Of a DNA stretch of 64,000 bases, positions 46,713 through 61,973 are shown piece after piece (the first letter of the stretch is position 1; each line of letters begins with the position of its first letter). The translations under genes and the position numbers were made by a program. The stretch comes from Phycisphaerae bacterium (lineage in GTDB: Bacteria > Planctomycetota > Phycisphaerae > SM23-33). The notes beneath the pieces are model-generated. The model saw only the letters and a program-made list of their open reading frames with translations, was not told the DNA's origin and ran no database searches. The DNA is taken from assembly GCA_011050235.1 (NCBI GenBank), contig DRGC01000055.1, positions 1 to 64,000 of the forward strand. Reading direction: 5' to 3'.

Positions 46713-47630
46713 CTAGAACTCGTTGATCACGGACGTGCCGAATTGCTGCAATTGCTCGATCCATCCGCCGACGGTGTCGCTGTCGGGGGATTCGACGTCC
46801 AGGAGGCACTTGTCGACCTCGCCCAGGCCGAAGCGATCGCGCTTCGACAGCCCCAGCCGATGATAGGGCATGATTTCCACCCCCTGCAGGTCGGGCAGCG
46901 ACGCCGCCAGCTCGGCGACCGCGCGGAAATGCTCGCTGCGATCATTGATCCCCGGTGCAATCGGCAGCCGCATCAGAATGGCGGCCCCGCTATCGTGGAG
47001 CTTGCGAAGGTTGGCCAGGATCAGCTCGTTGCCGACGCCGGTGACCTCCACGTGGCGGGCCGGATCGGTCTCCTTGATGTCGTAGAGGAACAGATCGACA
47101 TGCGGGGTGATGCGCTCGTACTGCCGCCACGGCGCGTGGCCGCAGGTCTCGACGGCGCAGTGGAGCCTCTCTCGCTTGGCGCTGGTCAGCAGGGCGTCGG
47201 TGAAATCGGGCTGCATCATCGGCTCGCCGCCGGAGAGCGTCATCCCGCCGCCGGAGGTCTCGTAGAACGGTCGATCTCGAACGACCTCGGCCAGGCAGTG
47301 CTCGGCCGTCACCGTCCGCCCGACGATCTCCAGCGCCCGCGCGTAGCACTCCTCGGCGCACTTGCCGCACACGACACACGCGTCGCGGTCCATAACGTGC
47401 CCGCCGTCGACCATCTTGTGGGCGTCGTTGCCGCACGCGCGAAAGCACCACCCGCACCCGATACACTTGTCCGGCAGGAACGAAAGCTGCTCGCGCGAGT
47501 CCATCCCCTCGGGGTTGTGACACCACAGGCACCGCAGCGGACAGCCCTTCAGAAAGACCGTCGTGCGAATGCCCGGCCCGTCGTGGATCGAGAAACGCTG
47601 AATGTCAAAAATCTGTCCAGTCACCGACAT
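46713..47630 (-). CDS. Glycyl-radical enzyme activating enzyme (radical SAM)
   Basis: The 305-residue protein installs the glycyl radical on its partner. The start IFDIQRFSIHDGPGIRTTVFLKGCPLRCLWCHNPE holds the CX3CX2C motif (CPLRCLWC). A two-cluster ferredoxin insert (CIGCGWCFRAC, CVVCGKCAEEC) and TLSGGEPMMQPDF follow, as in larger GRE activases. The ATG at 47630 matches the family start. It lies 30 bases after the GRE gene. Confidence 0.93.
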   Translation of the reverse strand: MSVTGQIFDIQRFSIHDGPGIRTTVFLKGCPLRCLWCHNPEGMDSREQLSFLPDKCIGCGWCFRACGNDAHKMVDGGHVMDRDACVVCGKCAEECYARALEIVGRTVTAEHCLAEVVRDRPFYETSGGGMTLSGGEPMMQPDFTDALLTSAKRERLHCAVETCGHAPWRQYERITPHVDLFLYDIKETDPARHVEVTGVGNELILANLRKLHDSGAAILMRLPIAPGINDRSEHFRAVAELAASLPDLQGVEIMPYHRLGLSKRDRFGLGEVDKCLLDVESPDSDTVGGWIEQLQQFGTSVINEF

Positions 47631-47659
47631 AAGTAAACAACTCCGATTCTTCACTCCGT

Positions 47660-49774
47660 TTAGACGGCGTAGGCCGTCCGGTCAATCAATTCCTGCTGGT
47701 ACTCGGGCGATAGCGCGACGAACCGGTCGCAGAAACCCCAGACGCGAACGATCAGATCGTCGTAGGCCTCGGGGTCCTTCCGGGCTGCCCGCAGCGTGTC
47801 CGCTCCGATGCAGTTGACCTGCAATTGCAGCCCACCCATCGCCAGGTAGGTCGTAATCAACATGGCGAACTTCTCCAGCCCCGCCTCGCCCGCCAGCGAG
47901 GCCGGGTCGAATGTCATCGTCAGCGACGCGTTCCATTGGCACCACATCGAATCGATCTTCGTCACCGACCGCATGACGGCCGTCGGGCCTTTATGGGCCG
48001 TGCCGTTGGCCGGCGCCAGCGTCACGCTCAGCGGATCGCCGGCGTGGCGGCCGTCGGGGGTGGCCCCAAGATCCCTGCCCCGCGCGACGTGGTGGGCCTG
48101 GTGGATGCCGGCCAGAAAACCGGCCTCGTCGTCGATGCGGTGGCGAATGATCTCACGACACGCCAGCTCCAGGAACTCCACCGCGATCTGATCGACAGCG
48201 TCGTCGTCGTTGCCCCATTTCGGGGCGGCCATCAATCGCCGCCGCAGCGACTCGGCATCGGCGAAATCCGACCGGCAGGCGGCCTTGACCTCAGCCAGGG
48301 TCGCTGCCCCATCCACATAGACAACCTGGTGGATGGCCGCCAACGAATTGATCGCACAGACCGGCGACGCCAGGAACACGCCCTTGTCGCGATAGCGCAG
48401 GCCGTCGTTGGCGACATCCAGCCCGTTGGCGATGCAGTCGTCCATCGGCGCCGACAGGAACGGCAGCGGCTCGCCGGGTCTGTCCGCGATTGCCTGACAA
48501 TAGGCCTTCAAGTGAACGTCGATCTCCGCAACGGTCCGGTCGCAGTAGTCCTGATAGAACGTCTGCCAGTCTGCATCGTCATCGATCGCTTCGAGCGTGG
48601 CCAACAGCCGGTCGGTCAGATCGATATCCGCCGCCAGGTAGAAGTCGCTCTTGCCGGCGATGTTGATGTCCTGGCAGGCGTCGATGGCGTAGTCGCGCGC
48701 GTCGGCTGGGGGAAAGCCGGCCCCGATCAGCGCCGGCACGAATGCATCGTCGTTGAACACGCAAATCTGCGCCGCCCCGTCTCGCAGCAGCTCGGCGACG
48801 TGGCGGACCAGCTCGGGCGGGCTGCCCTGGTGCAGGCGCACGGCCGGCTGGGGGTCGGGCAGCTTCAGCCGGGCGACCGAATCCAGCACGGCCCAGGTCA
48901 CAGCATTCGTGCCGTCGACGCCGTCGCGCGTCAGGCCGCTGAGCATCAGGTTGTTGTTGACCAGGCTCCCGCCGGCCCACAGGTCGTCCTGATCGTTGCA
49001 CTTGATAATGGCGCAGTCGATCAGTTCCCGCGCCCGCTCCTGGTCGTCCGGGTCGCTGGGCCACAGCGGGCCCATGAGCTGATCGAACCGCCCCGACGTC
49101 ACCAGGGAGCCCACCTCCAGCGTCGTCACCAGCCAGACGAACCGGTGCAGTTGCAGGGCCTCGTGGATGTTTCGCGGCGGGCCGGTCGCGATATGGCCGC
49201 ACCCGTCGGCGATCGTTTCCAACTCGCTTCGCCGGCCCCGGTCATCGGTCCGGCCGGCCAGCTCGGCCGCACAATCGGCATAGCGCTGCGACAACACGCC
49301 GGCGGCCTCGCAGGCGATCACAAAGCTCCGCAGGTGGTCCTGCCGCGTCGGATCGCTCTCGTCGGCCAGGCGCCGGCGGGCCCGATCGGCCAGCCCGCCC
49401 AGGCCGTAGTCAATGACGTTGGCGTAGCCAGGCACGTTATGGCTGGCGGCTCGGCCGCGGTCGTAGCAGGCGGCTTCATCGTCATCGCGGTAGAACTCCG
49501 GCAGCGTTGGCATCCAGACAAGCTCCGGGCGGGCATCGTCCGGCGGGGGGATGATCGTCCGCATGCCGACGATTAACTCGTCCGGCTCGATGGCGACGGG
49601 CATCTGCTCGCATACCAGGTGCAGGGCGCGGGCGCGGCGCTCGGGGAGGGAGCAGTCCAACTCGGCTACCGACCAATCGGCCGGCCGGGCAACACGATGC
49701 CGCACGTGATCGAGGCCCACCATCCGGCGGCGAAGCCGCTGGATACGGGGGCTCGTCTCGATTCGCTTAATCAC
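47660..49774 (-). CDS. Glycyl-radical enzyme (PFL-like) with non-canonical active-site loop
   Basis: The 704-residue protein has the C-terminal glycyl-radical motif RVWGFCDRF with Gly680 and QQELIDRT. The loop expected to hold the thiyl Cys reads YAIDACQDINIAGKS, so Cys367 is present, but the common GCVE is ACQD. The usual Glu base is therefore missing. Other PFL-like landmarks (NVPGYANVIDYGLGG, RFDQLMGPLWP, NNNLMLSGLT) are visible. It is followed by its activase and a UroD-like gene. Start is a GTG at 49774 with GGAGAG upstream. The substrate is unknown; dehydratase, lyase or decarboxylase activity cannot be told apart. Confidence 0.82.
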   Translation of the reverse strand: MIKRIETSPRIQRLRRRMVGLDHVRHRVARPADWSVAELDCSLPERRARALHLVCEQMPVAIEPDELIVGMRTIIPPPDDARPELVWMPTLPEFYRDDDEAACYDRGRAASHNVPGYANVIDYGLGGLADRARRRLADESDPTRQDHLRSFVIACEAAGVLSQRYADCAAELAGRTDDRGRRSELETIADGCGHIATGPPRNIHEALQLHRFVWLVTTLEVGSLVTSGRFDQLMGPLWPSDPDDQERARELIDCAIIKCNDQDDLWAGGSLVNNNLMLSGLTRDGVDGTNAVTWAVLDSVARLKLPDPQPAVRLHQGSPPELVRHVAELLRDGAAQICVFNDDAFVPALIGAGFPPADARDYAIDACQDINIAGKSDFYLAADIDLTDRLLATLEAIDDDADWQTFYQDYCDRTVAEIDVHLKAYCQAIADRPGEPLPFLSAPMDDCIANGLDVANDGLRYRDKGVFLASPVCAINSLAAIHQVVYVDGAATLAEVKAACRSDFADAESLRRRLMAAPKWGNDDDAVDQIAVEFLELACREIIRHRIDDEAGFLAGIHQAHHVARGRDLGATPDGRHAGDPLSVTLAPANGTAHKGPTAVMRSVTKIDSMWCQWNASLTMTFDPASLAGEAGLEKFAMLITTYLAMGGLQLQVNCIGADTLRAARKDPEAYDDLIVRVWGFCDRFVALSPEYQQELIDRTAYAV

Positions 49775-51218: not shown

Positions 51219-51761
51219 TCAGGCGCTCTTTGTCTCGGCGAGCGGGCACGCCCCGTCGATGCACTCCAGCCCGCAACACGGGCAGATATCGTTCGGCCGG
51301 CCCGTGCAGACCGGGCACTCCGGCCCGAGCCGCTCGTCAAGCACCCCGCTGAGATCGTTATCCTTCCAGTAGGCCACCAACGCCGACAGCCGCCGCGCGG
51401 TCGGGGCGTTGATGAGATTCTCGAGGCGACAGCTCTCGCTGTGCGATTGCTCCGCCGACATGCCCAGCACCTCGGTGAGAAACTCCTCAACCACCGCGTG
51501 CCGCATCTTCAGGCTCGCCACCGCCTGCCGGCCGGTGTCGGTCAGATGGAAAAAGTGGTTCCCGTCCTGCCGAACATAGCCGGCGGATTTGAGGCACTGC
51601 ATCGCCACCGACACGCTGCCTCGCGTGATCCCAAGACGGCGAGCGATATCCGTCACCCGCGCGTAGCCCTGCCGCCCGATCGACTCATCGACCGCCAACA
51701 GGTGATGCGACGCGCTGTGGGTCAGGCCTTGGGGCTCGAACTTTCTCTGCGTATTCGCCAT
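51219..51761 (-). CDS. DtxR/MntR-family metal-dependent repressor with Cys-rich tail
   Basis: The 180-residue protein has a winged-helix domain (VTDIARRLGITRGSVSVAMQCLKSAGYV) and metal-binding dimer helix (HAVVEEFLTEVLGMSAEQSHSESCRLEN), including the C/H/E ligands. No SH3 domain is seen. Instead a C-terminal tail carries CPVCTGRPNDICPCCGLECI and another Cys, likely a zinc or Fe-S site. No ribosome site is seen at 51761, consistent with a leaderless message from the -10 only about 10 bases upstream. It controls hemP by position. Confidence 0.82.
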   Translation of the reverse strand: MANTQRKFEPQGLTHSASHHLLAVDESIGRQGYARVTDIARRLGITRGSVSVAMQCLKSAGYVRQDGNHFFHLTDTGRQAVASLKMRHAVVEEFLTEVLGMSAEQSHSESCRLENLINAPTARRLSALVAYWKDNDLSGVLDERLGPECPVCTGRPNDICPCCGLECIDGACPLAETKSA

Positions 51762-51770
51762 GGGCGGTGG

Positions 51771-51802
51771 AATATACAATCACCTGTTTGGGTATGCAAA
51801 CA
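51771..51802 (-). promoter_or_regulatory. dtxR promoter with overlapping operator
   Basis: On the minus strand TATATT (51771-51776) is 17 bases from a weak -35 TTGCAT. A perfect inverted repeat TGTTTG-N6-CAAACA (51785-51802) overlaps the -35. It is a candidate autoregulatory site. Confidence 0.5.
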
Positions 51803-51938: not shown

Positions 51939-54227
51939 CTAGGCGCGCTGCTGGATTGAGTCGAGGTAGCCCACGGCGCCGGGGCTTAGTTCGGCGGCAT
52001 TGGCTTCGTCGGTGTCGATGTGCATGTCCAGGCGATAGTCCGGATCGACGCGAACCATGACGTCACCGAAGATCAGCGACCGCTCGCCCGGCACGCGAAT
52101 GCGCACAATGTCGTGGTCGCGCAGGGCGAACTCCATCGCATCCTGCGGTGACATGTGGATGTGTCGCATCGCGCAGATCACACCGCACTCGAGCGTCACC
52201 TGGCCGGCCGGGCCGATCAGCGTGAGCCCGGGCGTGCCTTCCAGATCGCCCGACAGGCGAATGGGCGCATCGATGCCCAGCTTGAACTCCTCCGTGCGCG
52301 AGATCTCGACCTGGGTCTGCGGACGGGCCGGGCCAAGAACGCGCGCGCGCTCGATGGCGCCCTTGGGGCCCTGCAGCGTGACCGTCTCCCCGCAGGCGAA
52401 CTGCCCGGGTTGGCTCAGGTCGGCGTGCCAAGTCAACTCGTGGCCGGGTCCGAACAGCGCCTCCACGTGCTCATCGGTCAGGTGGAGGTGATGGGCCGAC
52501 GGGCTGATGGGGATCGGCTCGTGGTGGAGGCGCATGATGTCGGTGACGCGCCGGTTGGCCAGGGCCTGGACGGTCTGGCGGGCGATCGTGTGTTCCTCAT
52601 TGCTGCCGACGGCGAACACGCGTGTGAGGCCTGGGCCCGCGGAGATCTCGGCCACCTCGCCGGCCGCCACGTGGGTGGTGCGGTTGTGGGCCTCATCCAG
52701 TCGAACGCCCATGCTGTCGAGGCCCTGGCAGATTCGGGCCCGCACGCCGGTGGCGTTCTCGCCAACGCCGCCGGTGAAGATAACGATATCGGCGCCGCCC
52801 AGCAGGCCGACGTAAGAGGCCAGGTACTTCCGCGCGCGGCGGCAGTAGATCTCGATGGCCAACAGCGCCCGCGCGTGGCCGGCCTCGGCGGCCTGCATCA
52901 CCGTCAGCACGTCGCCGGAAACGCCCGACAGGCCCAGCAGGCCCGCCTCGGTGTACAGGCGGTGGGTCAGCTCGTTGGCGTCCAGCCCTCGCCGGCCGAT
53001 CAGGTGCAGCACGAGCCCCGGATCCAGGTCGCCCGGGCGGGTGGACATCACCAGCCCTTCCAGCGACGTCAGGCCCATGCTGCTATCGACGCAGCGGCCG
53101 CGGTCGATGGCAGCCAGCGACGCCCCCGTGCCCAGATGGCAGACGACGATCTTCAACGCCTCGAAGTTGACGCCCAGAAACTCGCATGCCGCCCGCGCGG
53201 CGCCCTCGTGCGAGATCCCGTGCGAGCCGAACCGCCTCAACCGTCCGCCGTCGGTCAGGTCATCGGGCAGGGCGTACTGATACGCCGCGGGCGGCATCTT
53301 CAGATGAAAGGCGGTATCGAACACCGCCACCTGCGGCACGTCGCCGGCCAGCGACCGGCAGATCTCGATGCCGCGAAGGTTGTAGGGATTCTCCAGCGGG
53401 GCCAGGTCCGCCAGGCGGGCGATCTCGTCGGTGACCTCATCGTCAGCCAGCGCCGGCCCGTTGAAGCGCCCGCCGCCGTGGCAGACGCGGTGCCCGATGG
53501 CCGACAACTCCGACACATCCGACAGCACGCCCCCCTCTGTGGCCGTCAGCGTCGCCAGCATCGCCTTCAGGGCCGCCTCGTGCGTGGCCGGATCGATGGG
53601 CTGTTCGCCCGCCCCGGCCGGGCCCCAATAGGCATGAACCGCCTGCGGCCCGCCCAGACCGTCGACACTCCCGCCGGCCAGGGCGCCTTCGGAGGCGGTG
53701 TCGAAGTACCGGTAGCGCATATCGCCCTGGCGGCAGCTGACCGACAGAATCCGCATGGGCTCATAGGCGCCCAGGCTAAATCGCACGGCGGTCGGCCTGG
53801 GGGCGGCCATCCGCCCGGCCGGCGGCGCCAGGCGCGCCGTCATCAGCCGAACCAGGAACCGCGCCGCATCGATGTTGGCTGCGATCAGCGGGGCGATCGC
53901 CTCATGCAGGAAGACCACGGCCTGGGAGGGCTCGACGGCCACCACGTCGGCGCTGGAGGGGTTGCCCGTCAGCAGCGACATCTCCCCGAAACACTCCCCC
54001 GGCTCGATCGTGCCCAGCCGCTGGCGCTGCGGGGTGTCATGGCCCTGGACGGCCTCGAGACGGCCGGCCAGCAGCACGCCGAGCACTTCGCCCGCCTCGC
54101 CGCAGCGGATGCAGACCTCGCCGGGCTCGTAGGAAACAGCCACGCCAACACGGATGGCCTCGGCCATGGCCTCGGGCGAAAAGGTCGCGAAGAGCGGGTG
54201 CGATTGCAGTTGGCCTGCGATATCCAT
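51939..54227 (-). CDS. Cyclic-nucleotide-binding domain - acetate kinase - PduL fusion
   Basis: This 762-residue protein fuses three modules. Residues 1-130 are a CNBD (RLEAVQGHD... GECFGEMSLLTGNPSSADVVA). Residues about 158-565 are acetate kinase: GHRVCHGGG, FDTAFH, CHLGTGAS, STRPGDLDPG and FTGGVGENA are present. The AckA N-terminal Asn-x-Gly-Ser-Ser-Ser motif is replaced by SVSCRQGD, so the Mg-binding Asn is gone. Residues about 570-760 are PduL: zinc pairs HLHLT and MRHIHMS. Together acyl-CoA to acyl phosphate to acid plus ATP on one chain, possibly controlled by cNMP. The ATG at 54227 is chosen at the CNBD start; no ribosome site is evident. Confidence 0.85.
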   Translation of the reverse strand: MDIAGQLQSHPLFATFSPEAMAEAIRVGVAVSYEPGEVCIRCGEAGEVLGVLLAGRLEAVQGHDTPQRQRLGTIEPGECFGEMSLLTGNPSSADVVAVEPSQAVVFLHEAIAPLIAANIDAARFLVRLMTARLAPPAGRMAAPRPTAVRFSLGAYEPMRILSVSCRQGDMRYRYFDTASEGALAGGSVDGLGGPQAVHAYWGPAGAGEQPIDPATHEAALKAMLATLTATEGGVLSDVSELSAIGHRVCHGGGRFNGPALADDEVTDEIARLADLAPLENPYNLRGIEICRSLAGDVPQVAVFDTAFHLKMPPAAYQYALPDDLTDGGRLRRFGSHGISHEGAARAACEFLGVNFEALKIVVCHLGTGASLAAIDRGRCVDSSMGLTSLEGLVMSTRPGDLDPGLVLHLIGRRGLDANELTHRLYTEAGLLGLSGVSGDVLTVMQAAEAGHARALLAIEIYCRRARKYLASYVGLLGGADIVIFTGGVGENATGVRARICQGLDSMGVRLDEAHNRTTHVAAGEVAEISAGPGLTRVFAVGSNEEHTIARQTVQALANRRVTDIMRLHHEPIPISPSAHHLHLTDEHVEALFGPGHELTWHADLSQPGQFACGETVTLQGPKGAIERARVLGPARPQTQVEISRTEEFKLGIDAPIRLSGDLEGTPGLTLIGPAGQVTLECGVICAMRHIHMSPQDAMEFALRDHDIVRIRVPGERSLIFGDVMVRVDPDYRLDMHIDTDEANAAELSPGAVGYLDSIQQRA

Positions 54228-54466
54228 TCGATAATCCCACAGCTGGCGGCGGTTTTGCGCGGGTATGCTACCAGACCCCGCCTCCCGTGTCTGCACACGG
54301 CCGAGACTGCAGTGACCATTCGACAGCTAGGGGGTTGCATTAACGGCCACGACATGGGAGGATAACAAGATATTATCGAAAGCCCGACCGTTTGGAGGGC
54401 TGTGCAGACAACCCGGTGGAAGTCATCATAACGTTCGGCCGGGGGTGATGCACTGCTGCAATAGTG

Positions 54467-57381: not shown

Positions 57382-59301
57382 ATGACCATGGCTCCTTCCG
57401 ACGCGCACCACGATCATGATTCGGACCATTCCCACGGGGCCGGCGCCGCTTTGAGCGACCGGGCCCGCGACATTCTGCGGCGCGGTATCGACGAATTGCT
57501 GCAGATGACCGAGGCCATGACCTTCCAGCCCGTGGCGTCCGAGAAGTTCCCCCTGCCGCTGACGTCCGTCGCCCACGCCCAGCTGCCGGGCCTGGATGCC
57601 CTGCGGGTCGAGATCGAGGCGCGGAAGGACTCGGACCCCATCCGCATCCTGGACGAGGTCCTGGCCCTGCTGGAACTTTACGAGTGCAATCAGCCCGACA
57701 TCGCCGAACATATTCTCCAGGACATGCCGTTCGTGGCGACGTGCTTCAACTCCAAGCGCCGCAATGGGTGGATCGCCGTCGTCGGAGACGGCGATCGCGC
57801 TGCGCTGGAATCGGCTGTCAACGACCGGTGGCTGTTCGAGTTTTTCTCCGGCCCGGCCCGGCCGACCGGCCTGTACGTGCTGCTGAGCATGCTGGCCCGA
57901 TACGCGTTCGTCTACGGGCCCGTGGCGCCTGGCGACAGCCACACGCTTTCGCACTTCGTCGAGGATCTGGCCCCCGGCGTGATCGTCTGTCATGGGGCGC
58001 TGAGCGACCTGGAATGGACGCTGGCCCTGGCGGCGATGAAGATGGGCGTCCCGGCCGTCGTGCCCGCCGACTACCCGTTCGGCCTGGGCCGCACGCTGCA
58101 AGCCGACACGCCCGACCAGGTCGCCGAGACCGTCGTAGGCCTGCCCAACATCCGGCGGCTCCTGCAGGTGCCCGACATTCCGCAACTGCCCCCCTACTGT
58201 AACGGGCAATTCGCCGGCCAGGAGATTACCCCGGCCGTCACCTGGGGCGGCACGAGCGAGAGCTTTTTCATCGTCCGAAAGGGATCGGTCAGCAAGCCCG
58301 GTTTCGCCGTCACCGCCAAGCCGACCGGGCCGATCGGCATTGTCGTGACGGCCGACGCCGAGCCTATGGATGCCGTCGACTGCGACTACATCGAGCAGGC
58401 TGTCCTGCCGACGCTGGCGATGATGGACGGCGTGGCCGTCGATGCCGACGACGACGGCCTGACGATCCACATGGGTGAGGGCATTCAACTGGATCCGAAG
58501 CGGATCGGCGAGGCGCTGCTGGCGGCGGTGGGCAACCAGTTTCCCAAGCTTCACGACCGCACCCGCGTGGAGGTGATCTTCGACGTCGCCACGCTCGGCG
58601 AGATCGCCCCCGACGTTCGGGCCGAGAAGCTCGCCCGCGCCGACCAGATCGCCCGCGCCACCGAGGAATCGGCCGAGCAGTTCATCGGCTGCACGGGGTG
58701 CTCGCCGTTCGCGCCGGACCACGTGTGCATCATCACGCCCGAGCGTCCCACGCAGTGCGGGCGGCCGATGGGGCTGCTCAAGACCAACGCCCAATACGCC
58801 TACGACGACATGAGCGGCATCCATCACAGCCGCCTGCAGAAGGACGTCAATTCCTTCATCGTGATCGACAAGGGCGAGTGTATCGACCCGGTGCGCGGCG
58901 AGTGGTCGGGCGTCAACGCCCACGCTCAGCGCATGACCGACGGCCGGACGCAGCGCGTCCAACTGCACTGCCTCGACGAGGTCCCCCACACCGGCTGCGG
59001 ATGCTTTCGGCTGATCCTGTTCAAGACCGCGGCGCCCCGCGAGGGCGTGGGTGTGATGGACCGCGGCTTCGGCGGCGCCTGCGCCGACGGGCGGGCGTGG
59101 GGTGACCTCTACTACGAATTGGCCGGCAAGCAAACCCCCGGCGTCACCGGGGCCGGACCGGGATATCTGCTGTCCGACAAGTTCCTCGCCGCCCACGGCG
59201 GCTGGGACAGCGTCGTATGGGTTAGCCCCCGCGTAGCCGAGTTCATGGGTGACCGTCTGCCCGATGGCGTGGACGTCGGCCGCGAGCCCGAAGCAGGCTA
59301 G
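57382..59301 (+). CDS. Acetyl-CoA synthase beta-type subunit (CdhC/AcsB-like)
   Basis: The 639-residue protein carries all six A-cluster cysteines with canonical spacing. Cys437, Cys440, Cys449 and Cys459 (C-x2-C-x8-C-x9-C, in GCTGCSPFAPDHVC then ITPERPTQC) and Cys539/Cys541 (HTGCGCF) are present. The C-terminal DRGFGGACADG and GGWDSVVWV match ACS. The N-terminus is His-rich (HHDHDSDHSHG), perhaps for nickel. This enzyme assembles acetyl-CoA from CO, a corrinoid methyl and CoA in the Wood-Ljungdahl pathway. No CODH or corrinoid Fe-S subunit lies beside it. It may be a stand-alone or relocated subunit. The ATG follows GGGAG. Confidence 0.88.
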   Translation: MTMAPSDAHHDHDSDHSHGAGAALSDRARDILRRGIDELLQMTEAMTFQPVASEKFPLPLTSVAHAQLPGLDALRVEIEARKDSDPIRILDEVLALLELYECNQPDIAEHILQDMPFVATCFNSKRRNGWIAVVGDGDRAALESAVNDRWLFEFFSGPARPTGLYVLLSMLARYAFVYGPVAPGDSHTLSHFVEDLAPGVIVCHGALSDLEWTLALAAMKMGVPAVVPADYPFGLGRTLQADTPDQVAETVVGLPNIRRLLQVPDIPQLPPYCNGQFAGQEITPAVTWGGTSESFFIVRKGSVSKPGFAVTAKPTGPIGIVVTADAEPMDAVDCDYIEQAVLPTLAMMDGVAVDADDDGLTIHMGEGIQLDPKRIGEALLAAVGNQFPKLHDRTRVEVIFDVATLGEIAPDVRAEKLARADQIARATEESAEQFIGCTGCSPFAPDHVCIITPERPTQCGRPMGLLKTNAQYAYDDMSGIHHSRLQKDVNSFIVIDKGECIDPVRGEWSGVNAHAQRMTDGRTQRVQLHCLDEVPHTGCGCFRLILFKTAAPREGVGVMDRGFGGACADGRAWGDLYYELAGKQTPGVTGAGPGYLLSDKFLAAHGGWDSVVWVSPRVAEFMGDRLPDGVDVGREPEAG

Positions 59302-60434: not shown

Positions 60435-61973
60435 CTAGGCGAAATCCTGCACGTAGAAGCGCCACCAATCGTTCGCCTTGGCGCGCCAGCTTCGGTCGTC
60501 CTCAGCCAGGCGCTTCTCGACGGCGGCGAGTCGTTCGAGCGTCTCTGCGCCGGTCACACCATCGCTGCGACGGGCGAGAATATCTTTCACGCGCGTGTGC
60601 GCTTTATCGTACCAGTCCTCCTGCGACGCCGCCACGCGGCCGGTGAAGTCCGAGTAATAAATATCGCGCTTCATGTGCTTCAGCGTGTGCTCGTTGAAGG
60701 CGAAACTCCCACCCGACTGGGCGCTGCAGGCGGCGATCACCTCGACGGCCAGGCTGTCGGCGTCGGTGTGAATCTCGCCGTTGATATTCAGCAACTGCCC
60801 GGCGATCTCGTCGGTGACGATCAGGTGCTCGTAGCTGAGCATCAGTGTAGAGTCGAGGATGGCCGTCATGATGATATTGCCCCCGGCCGCCAGACCCAGC
60901 GCCAACCCCAGGGCCGTCTCCACCGCCGCCCGCGCGCCGGGCGCCTTGGCGCTGGGGTTGCCCGGGCAGATGCGACTGGGCAGGCCGTAGCGGTCGGCGA
61001 TCTGAACCGCCGCGACGTTCAGCAGCCCCGTCTCGATGCTGCCGTGAGAGATGTCGGCAGTGCGAAGGTCGGTGGGCGCCCCAACAAAGCCGTACATGGT
61101 CGGCACGCCCGGCCGTGCGAGCTGGACCATCGTCACGGCCGCCAGCACCTCGGCGTTGTGTTGGGTCAGCGCCCCGGCCAGCGTCACCGGGCAACTGGTG
61201 CCCATCATCACCTCAGGGCTAATGATCACCAGCGTGCACTTGCGGGCCGGATCGAGAAGCTCCAGAACAATCGGCGCCTGCTCGGCGTGCCACTGCAACG
61301 GGCTGAGCGGGTTGAACCAGATGTATTGCTCCCACAGGCTCATTCGCTGCTCGAGCGTGGCCGCCCCATCGCGGATCGCCAGCGCCAGCGTCGCCAGCGC
61401 CACCTCCTGCGAAGAATAGTTGCGAACGTTCAGCCCCAACGGCCGCTCGATGCCTTGCCGTCCCGCCAGCCACCGCCGCAGGAACTCCCCGCGCGCGTCG
61501 GCGCTGTCGAAGGTGATCTGCTTGCGCCGGCCCGCGCTGGTCCGCTCGGAATGAAACACCAAATCGCACGGGTCGGCCACGAGGTTCTTGAGATGGGCGG
61601 CGATCAGTGAGAACTCGTCCGAATCGGCCTCCACGCAATGGCGCGGCGCGCCGGCCTGGTGGTCGTAGATCGTGTAGGCGTTGCCGTTGATGGTGATATT
61701 GCTGGCGCCCTTGGCCAGGCTGAATTGCTCGCCGTAGCCCAGCGACGGATCGCCGAAGGTCAGCGTATCGCGATCGGGTAGGCGTTGCAGACAGTCTTCG
61801 ACCAACTCAGCCGGAAACCGAATGCGTCCGCCCTCAGCCCGACACCCGTTGGCGACAAGAAACTCCTCCACCTGCGGGGCCTTGTGAAACAACACGCCCA
61901 CGTCGGCCAGCACGGTCAGCGAGGCCTGATGAATCCGCTCGATGTCCTCCGCCCGAAGCGCCTGAATGTGCAT
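60435..61973 (-). CDS. Trimethylamine methyltransferase (MttB) family protein, non-pyrrolysine type
   Basis: The 512-residue protein matches MttB-family proteins: SLTVLADVGVLFH at the start, RPLGLNVRNYSSQE, SPEVMMGTSCPVTLAGALTQHNAEVLAAV, and GLALGLAAGGNIIMTA. The frame has no internal amber codon, so no pyrrolysine; such proteins demethylate betaines or are uncharacterised. Its partner corrinoid protein is not in view. It lies between a gamma-lyase-type gene and the FucI-like gene in the same orientation. Confidence 0.85.
   Translation of the reverse strand: MHIQALRAEDIERIHQASLTVLADVGVLFHKAPQVEEFLVANGCRAEGGRIRFPAELVEDCLQRLPDRDTLTFGDPSLGYGEQFSLAKGASNITINGNAYTIYDHQAGAPRHCVEADSDEFSLIAAHLKNLVADPCDLVFHSERTSAGRRKQITFDSADARGEFLRRWLAGRQGIERPLGLNVRNYSSQEVALATLALAIRDGAATLEQRMSLWEQYIWFNPLSPLQWHAEQAPIVLELLDPARKCTLVIISPEVMMGTSCPVTLAGALTQHNAEVLAAVTMVQLARPGVPTMYGFVGAPTDLRTADISHGSIETGLLNVAAVQIADRYGLPSRICPGNPSAKAPGARAAVETALGLALGLAAGGNIIMTAILDSTLMLSYEHLIVTDEIAGQLLNINGEIHTDADSLAVEVIAACSAQSGGSFAFNEHTLKHMKRDIYYSDFTGRVAASQEDWYDKAHTRVKDILARRSDGVTGAETLERLAAVEKRLAEDDRSWRAKANDWWRFYVQDFA

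Follow-up and report, generated by a model that had tools for sequence, protein, structure and literature searches.

A probable PduL-type phosphotransacetylase fused to a degenerate acetate-kinase domain and a cyclic-nucleotide-binding-like module in Phycisphaerae and other bacteria

A stretch of 64,000 nucleotides from a Phycisphaerae bacterium (the window) encodes a single protein chain that joins a cyclic-nucleotide-binding domain (CNBD), an acetate-kinase (AckA) domain and a PduL phosphotransacylase. We consider this protein to be, with fair probability, a PduL-type phosphotransacetylase that carries a pseudo-AckA and a probably non-canonical CNBD and that serves the acetyl-CoA/acetate node of Wood-Ljungdahl metabolism. 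With slightly less assurance, we propose that CNBD-AckA-PduL proteins constitute an unrecognized family of acetyl-CoA-pathway bacteria, in which an ancestral one-chain enzyme leading from acetyl-CoA to ATP was split at least twice by domain degeneration, in a Phycisphaerae/Lentisphaerae clade and in magnetotactic Nitrospirota, leaving a PduL with a pseudo-AckA that works with a separate active kinase; between the Nitrospirota paralogues this split would be reciprocal. AckA together with a phosphotransacetylase is the classic textbook pathway that couples acetate to ATP formation. A single-chain form of the pair that carries a sensor-like module, and in which one activity seems to have been lost repeatedly and in part reciprocally, offers a natural experiment on the reason for the fusion and on why an inactive acetate kinase would be retained. 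Genes labelled acetate kinase in these lineages may not encode one, which has consequences for how the metabolism of Planctomycetota and magnetotactic Nitrospirota is reconstructed.

An earlier note, made from the window sequence alone, had placed the three modules on one open frame, and this is borne out by translation and a Pfam domain search: the stop-free frame of 762 codons on the minus strand contains, in order, cNMP_binding (residues 31–117, E = 7e-16), Acetate_kinase (161–550, E = 4e-103) and PTAC/PduL (574–747, E = 2e-74), all scoring far over the Pfam cut-offs (Table 1). The mechanically called ORF reaches upstream to a GTG at 54296; homologues start at the methionine equivalent to 54227. 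The DNA is GC-rich and long antisense ORFs run across the gene, for example 52155–54365 (+), but the fusion gene is judged to be the real one because it is conserved. The AlphaFold2 model of the protein (mean pLDDT 81) matches, in a Foldseek comparison with PDB structures, acetate kinases, the PduL of R. palustris (5cuo, TM 0.92) and Crp-type CNBDs. Frameshifts or an assembly artefact, which the earlier note had named as outcomes that would undo its reading, are ruled out: the frame is intact and the same full-length, single-chain ORF recurs in many independent genomes.

Table 1. Coordinates of the fusion gene and its parts in the window
Feature	Position	Strand	Remarks and evidence
CNBD-AckA-PduL fusion gene	51939..54227	-	762 aa; ATG at 54227; stop 51939-51941; homologues share start and end
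Cyclic-nucleotide-binding-like domain, residues 1-140	53808..54227	-	Pfam PF00027, E 7e-16; Clr/PKG/CRP matches in PDB
CNBD phosphate-binding-cassette region, residues 77-97 (GECFGEMSLLTGNPSSADVVA)	53937..53999	-	alignment to Clr and family alignment
Linker CNBD-AckA, residues 141-157	53757..53807	-	weakly conserved; pLDDT low for residues 135-147
Acetate-kinase domain, residues 158-555, degenerate on the ATP side	52563..53756	-	PF00871; residue tables
Former PHOSPHATE1 loop of AckA, residues 158-176 (MRILSVSCRQGDMRYRYFD)	53700..53756	-	clade motif in 7/7 sequences
Linker AckA-PduL, residues 556-571	52515..52562	-	pLDDT <50 at 559-567
PduL phosphotransacylase domain, residues 572-762	51942..52514	-	PF06130; numbering = rPduL + 532; Zn-ligand and phosphate/CoA positions invariant

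Full-length three-domain ORFs are present in three genomes of the same family as the window genome (G031, G005 and G020, 61–70% identity), in L037–L047, L049, L050, L057 and L059, and in the single-contig genomes G139 and G251, the taxa being Phycisphaerae, other Planctomycetota families, Lentisphaerae, magnetotactic Nitrospirota and Syntrophales. In one planctomycete family (f50) the genomes with the fusion also contain hydrazine synthase alpha-like genes, from which we infer that they are probably anammox bacteria. AckA-PduL proteins that do not include a CNBD are found in Myxococcota/deltaproteobacterial and planctomycete (f26) relatives. The distribution is patchy, with the fusion in 4 of the 38 genomes of the window genome's order, which suggests transfer or loss. 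Two partial forms were also seen: in an anammox-type genome (G368, L146:8695-10380) a CNBD-AckA chain stops directly after AckA, with no PduL in the chain, and in G023 (L147:4521-4952), a single incomplete MAG, a CNBD-only ORF of 143 amino acids, 69% identical to the fusion CNBD, lies between genes for formate-THF ligase (Fhs) and aldehyde:ferredoxin oxidoreductase at a locus from which AckA-PduL is missing.

The degeneration of the AckA domain lies on its ATP side. Using the residue numbering of M. thermophila AckA, the window domain, which scores 342.9 bits with TIGR00016 (cut-off 293.4) and matches 1g99 in Foldseek, has replaced the PHOSPHATE1 residues N7, S10, S12 and K14, expected of a functional AckA, by S, Q, D and R, together with G9R and H123E; in the ATP pocket it has N211T, G239S and R285L and keeps D283 and G331, and on the acyl and catalytic side R91, D148, H180, R241 and E384 are all in place. 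These changes are largely shared by the window clade (seven sequences from Phycisphaerae and Lentisphaerae, 61% identical within the AckA domain), where N7, G9, S10, S12, K14, H123 and G239 are replaced in 7/7 and R285 in 6/7; residue 123 is acidic throughout, position 239 is S or A, and position 211 reads T, S, T, E, M, M and A. The loss of the N-terminal Asn/Ser motif reported in the earlier note is thus confirmed, SCRQGDMRY standing in the window for NxGSSSxKY, and all seven sequences carry a new motif, (S/A)-C-R-x-x-D-h-R-Y, in place of PHOSPHATE1. Structure prediction of this region, suggested in the same note, gives a tight hairpin with a two-residue turn between strands 159–166 and 169–176 (pLDDT >90); the AlphaFold2 model of an intact relative, L050, has a four-residue GSSS loop between strands 172–178 and 183–189, a comparison that rests on shallow alignments.

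Conservation reaches 95% or more in 84 columns of 54 intact AckAs, and 15 of these columns are changed in at least six of the seven clade members. They include seven of the nine ATP/phosphate-side columns (N7, G9, S10, S12, K14, G239 and R285; hypergeometric p = 4e-5, for a position list assembled by the analyst with sides assigned from PMC4390882 and general AckA knowledge) and no acyl-side column, D148, H180, H184, H208, R241 and E384 being unchanged. In the M. thermophila enzyme single changes at N211, G239 or G331 lower activity 6–200-fold, changes at R285 lower kcat 7–9-fold, and the importance of five PHOSPHATE1 residues is established (PMC4390882). The window protein combines several of these published loss positions, namely N211T, G239S, R285L and the whole of PHOSPHATE1.

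In trees built after removal of the active-site columns, the window clade (support 100/100) groups beside intact planctomycete fusions (98/98) and the degenerate Nitrospirota fusions group beside intact Syntrophales fusions (100/99). Because the two groups occupy separate positions, the ATP site was lost independently in Nitrospirota and in the window clade, although a G9 to Arg change and the loss of R285 are common to both. On the stem branch of the window clade PduL accumulated 0.095 substitutions per site, AckA 0.70 and the CNBD 0.96, that is, about 7 and 10 times the PduL change, whereas the corresponding ratios for the entire tree are 2.3 and 3.2 (totals 4.7, 10.8 and 14.8).

All nine Nitrospirota genomes contain two paralogues. 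One has an intact PduL and an altered AckA (G9R, D283Y/C, R285 lost); the other keeps all 16 AckA residues and has a PduL that is either altered, in six copies (R103K in four, a segment missing in L172, several losses in L173), or absent, in three (L168, L169 and L171). Since the kinase-keeping copies do not form one clade, the duplication and sorting of these genes may have been complex. The case for PduL as the working part of the degenerate fusions, in every one of which its catalytic residues are complete, rests most strongly on this reciprocity. In the window protein the zinc ligands H580, H582, E641, H689, H691 and H736 (H48, H50, E109, H157, H159 and H204) and the phosphate/CoA residues R635, Q639 and S659 (R103, Q107 and S127) are all present. 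A full-length Pta was not found in the window genome, which has only partial Ptb-like matches beside butyrate-kinase-like genes.

A second AckA is encoded in 16/16 genomes with a degenerate-kinase fusion versus 2/13 with an intact-kinase fusion (p = 2e-6 over 29 genomes that are not phylogenetically independent and include some incomplete MAGs), and in the window's family a standalone AckA is near-universal, irrespective of the fusion. Each of the seven window-clade genomes has as its second AckA an intact standalone protein, one of which shows K14R. These observations bear on the proposal of the earlier note that the chain couples both reactions, with PduL making acetyl phosphate, the fused AckA making ATP from it and the CNBD providing regulation. 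All three domains are indeed joined, D148, R241 and E384 remain in the window protein, channelling, which such a chain might involve, has been suggested for AckA-PduL fusions (PMC4784909), and the anammox-type and Syntrophales relatives, in which AckA and PduL are intact and mostly no other AckA is present, make such coupling plausible for the intact-kinase forms. For the window protein, however, coupling is not supported, because the ATP-side residues are replaced across the clade and an intact AckA is encoded elsewhere in the genome, as in all others of the clade; the Nitrospirota paralogues, moreover, show the two activities separating after duplication, and we regard a bifunctional chain as unlikely here.

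A little less likely still is an AckA domain active with another phosphoryl donor or acceptor, such as the PPi/Pi of the Entamoeba histolytica enzyme. The window residues at 211 and 239 are those of the E. histolytica AckA (PMC4390882), without R285 the adenosine pocket would be more open, and the acyl-side residues are kept; because of the latter, and of the sequence identity maintained within the clade, it is possible that the window AckA has some kinase activity, perhaps with such a donor. However, G331 is kept, whereas its change to Gln marks the PPi enzyme, positions 211 and 239 vary within the clade, and charged residues occupy the place of the PHOSPHATE1 loop.

The N-terminal module has the CNBD fold, scoring over the PF00027 gathering threshold. 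In an alignment with the cAMP receptor Clr, PRSAD is replaced by PSSAD, so that the Arg of the PRSA(T/D) signature is Ser91, while Glu82 is kept, and no family CNBD aligned has the cNMP-phosphate-binding Arg at the cassette site. The window genome, which is 95% complete, yielded no class III cyclase; most other fusion genomes have one. The cyclic-nucleotide input that the earlier note envisaged is therefore not supported for the window protein, and canonical cAMP/cGMP control appears unlikely, given the replaced Arg and the missing cyclase; another ligand or a structural role is possible. That the whole chain is a signalling protein, in which the pseudo-AckA binds acetyl phosphate and the CNBD some ligand, with PduL adjusting or sensing the ratio of acetyl-CoA to acetyl phosphate, is improbable, for although the CNBD is fast-evolving yet retained, the AckA acyl side is preserved and a CNBD-only ORF exists in G023, PduL is the sole candidate output domain, the CNBD has no phosphate-binding Arg and the G023 case comes from one incomplete MAG.

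We thus prefer the reading as a phosphotransacetylase with a pseudo-kinase. PduL would catalyze acetyl-CoA + Pi ↔ acetyl phosphate + CoA in a soluble protein, with a direction of flux that we infer, and the CNBD-fold module would probably not be a conventional cyclic-nucleotide binder. The AckA domain, which judging by its residues would lack ATP-dependent kinase function, may be kept as a structural or regulatory part: it could form a dimer with the intact AckA encoded elsewhere in the genome or pass acetyl phosphate on to that enzyme, or alternatively bind acetyl phosphate or acetate.

The fusion would serve the acetyl-CoA/acetate node of Wood-Ljungdahl (CODH/ACS) metabolism. In G031 the gene lies within a cluster of CdhD, RACo, a corrinoid protein, AcsB, CODH, Fhs and MetV; 51 bp separate it from Fhs in G020, with MetV and MTHFR at a greater distance, and in L041 it adjoins RACo. 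Clustering of recurrent neighbours by blastp returned little besides Fhs and RACo. The window gene itself does not adjoin Wood-Ljungdahl genes, the CODH/ACS cluster of its genome, with a real AcsB, being on another contig (C2; several of its genes were named by eye). In a sample of 392 Planctomycetota genomes, ACS occurs in 11/12 that have a CNBD fusion versus 46/380 that do not (p = 3e-9; the genomes are not phylogenetically independent, six of the twelve being from one family); it was not detected in the fusion genomes G005 and G020. An ACS link for all fusions is ruled out by the two-domain AckA-PduL proteins that have no CNBD (0/6 genomes), and a constant association with Wood-Ljungdahl genes by the anammox-type genomes and G139, where the neighbour is phosphoketolase, an enzyme that makes acetyl phosphate directly; in the anammox-type genomes glycogen phosphorylase is also nearby. 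The theme common to these neighbourhoods is the acetyl-CoA/acetyl phosphate/acetate node.

Several other genes at these loci deserve mention. In the anammox-type genomes phosphoketolase, glycogen phosphorylase and the CNBD-AckA-PduL gene adjoin a 1096-aa fusion of RpiB, transaldolase and phosphoglucose isomerase (L142:4024-7314, L141:12209-15499 and L146:11802-15092). In the window, a DtxR/MarR-like regulator with an Fe_dep_repr_C domain (51219–51779, -) is located on the same strand 160 bp downstream of the fusion. A 639-aa protein (57382–59301, +), adjoining ABC/DUF1854 genes, contains only the C-terminal (A-cluster) domain of ACS/CODH beta, lacking CdhC and CODH_A_N, which rules out a complete AcsB; with its Cys-rich CxxC...C...C and CGC motifs, it is possibly a divergent acetyl-CoA-synthase-like enzyme. 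A 512-aa MttB-family methyltransferase (60435–61973, -) has no in-frame TAG and is therefore probably a non-pyrrolysine member. Finally, a short (704 aa) glycyl-radical enzyme (47660–49774, -), with its activase (46713–47654, -), scores far under all NCBIfam equivalog cut-offs.

The statement of the earlier note that no named family has this architecture holds insofar as NCBIfam and Pfam have separate models for the parts and none spanning the whole, but AckA-PduL multidomain proteins, with a proposal of channelling, were already noted by Erbilgin et al. 2016 (PMC4784909). Like the window protein, those fusions place PduL after AckA in a single chain and carry no encapsulation peptide; they were mentioned with no CNBD, survey or residue analysis, and the window protein adds the CNBD and the degenerate kinase. 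A search of the open-access literature turned up neither the CNBD form nor the degenerate kinase; passages retrieved from genome papers on a Nitrospirota MTB and a Scalindua list ordinary acetate kinase and phosphate acetyltransferase and mention no fusion. With M. thermophila AckA (1g99; TIGR00016/PF00871) the window protein shares the fold, 40% identity and D148, H180, R241 and E384, and differs in PHOSPHATE1, H123, N211, G239 and R285. The E. histolytica PPi-dependent acetate kinase (4h0o) has the equivalents of Thr211 and Ser239, whereas the window protein keeps Gly331, leaving the T211/S239/Q331 combination incomplete, and is fused to PduL. The CNBD has the fold of Crp/PKG-type domains (PF00027; Clr, 7pza) and, within the phosphate-binding cassette, their FGE(M) segment, but has Ser91 for the phosphate Arg and no HTH domain. 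The PduL domain is 48% identical to R. palustris PduL (5cuo; PF06130) over the structural match and has every Zn ligand and the equivalents of Arg103, Gln107 and Ser127; unlike microcompartment (BMC) PduL, a reading that is ruled out for the fusion, it has no shell-protein genes around it, and it is the separate PduL of the window genome, at C30 among small shell-like ORFs (judged by eye), that occupies such a locus.
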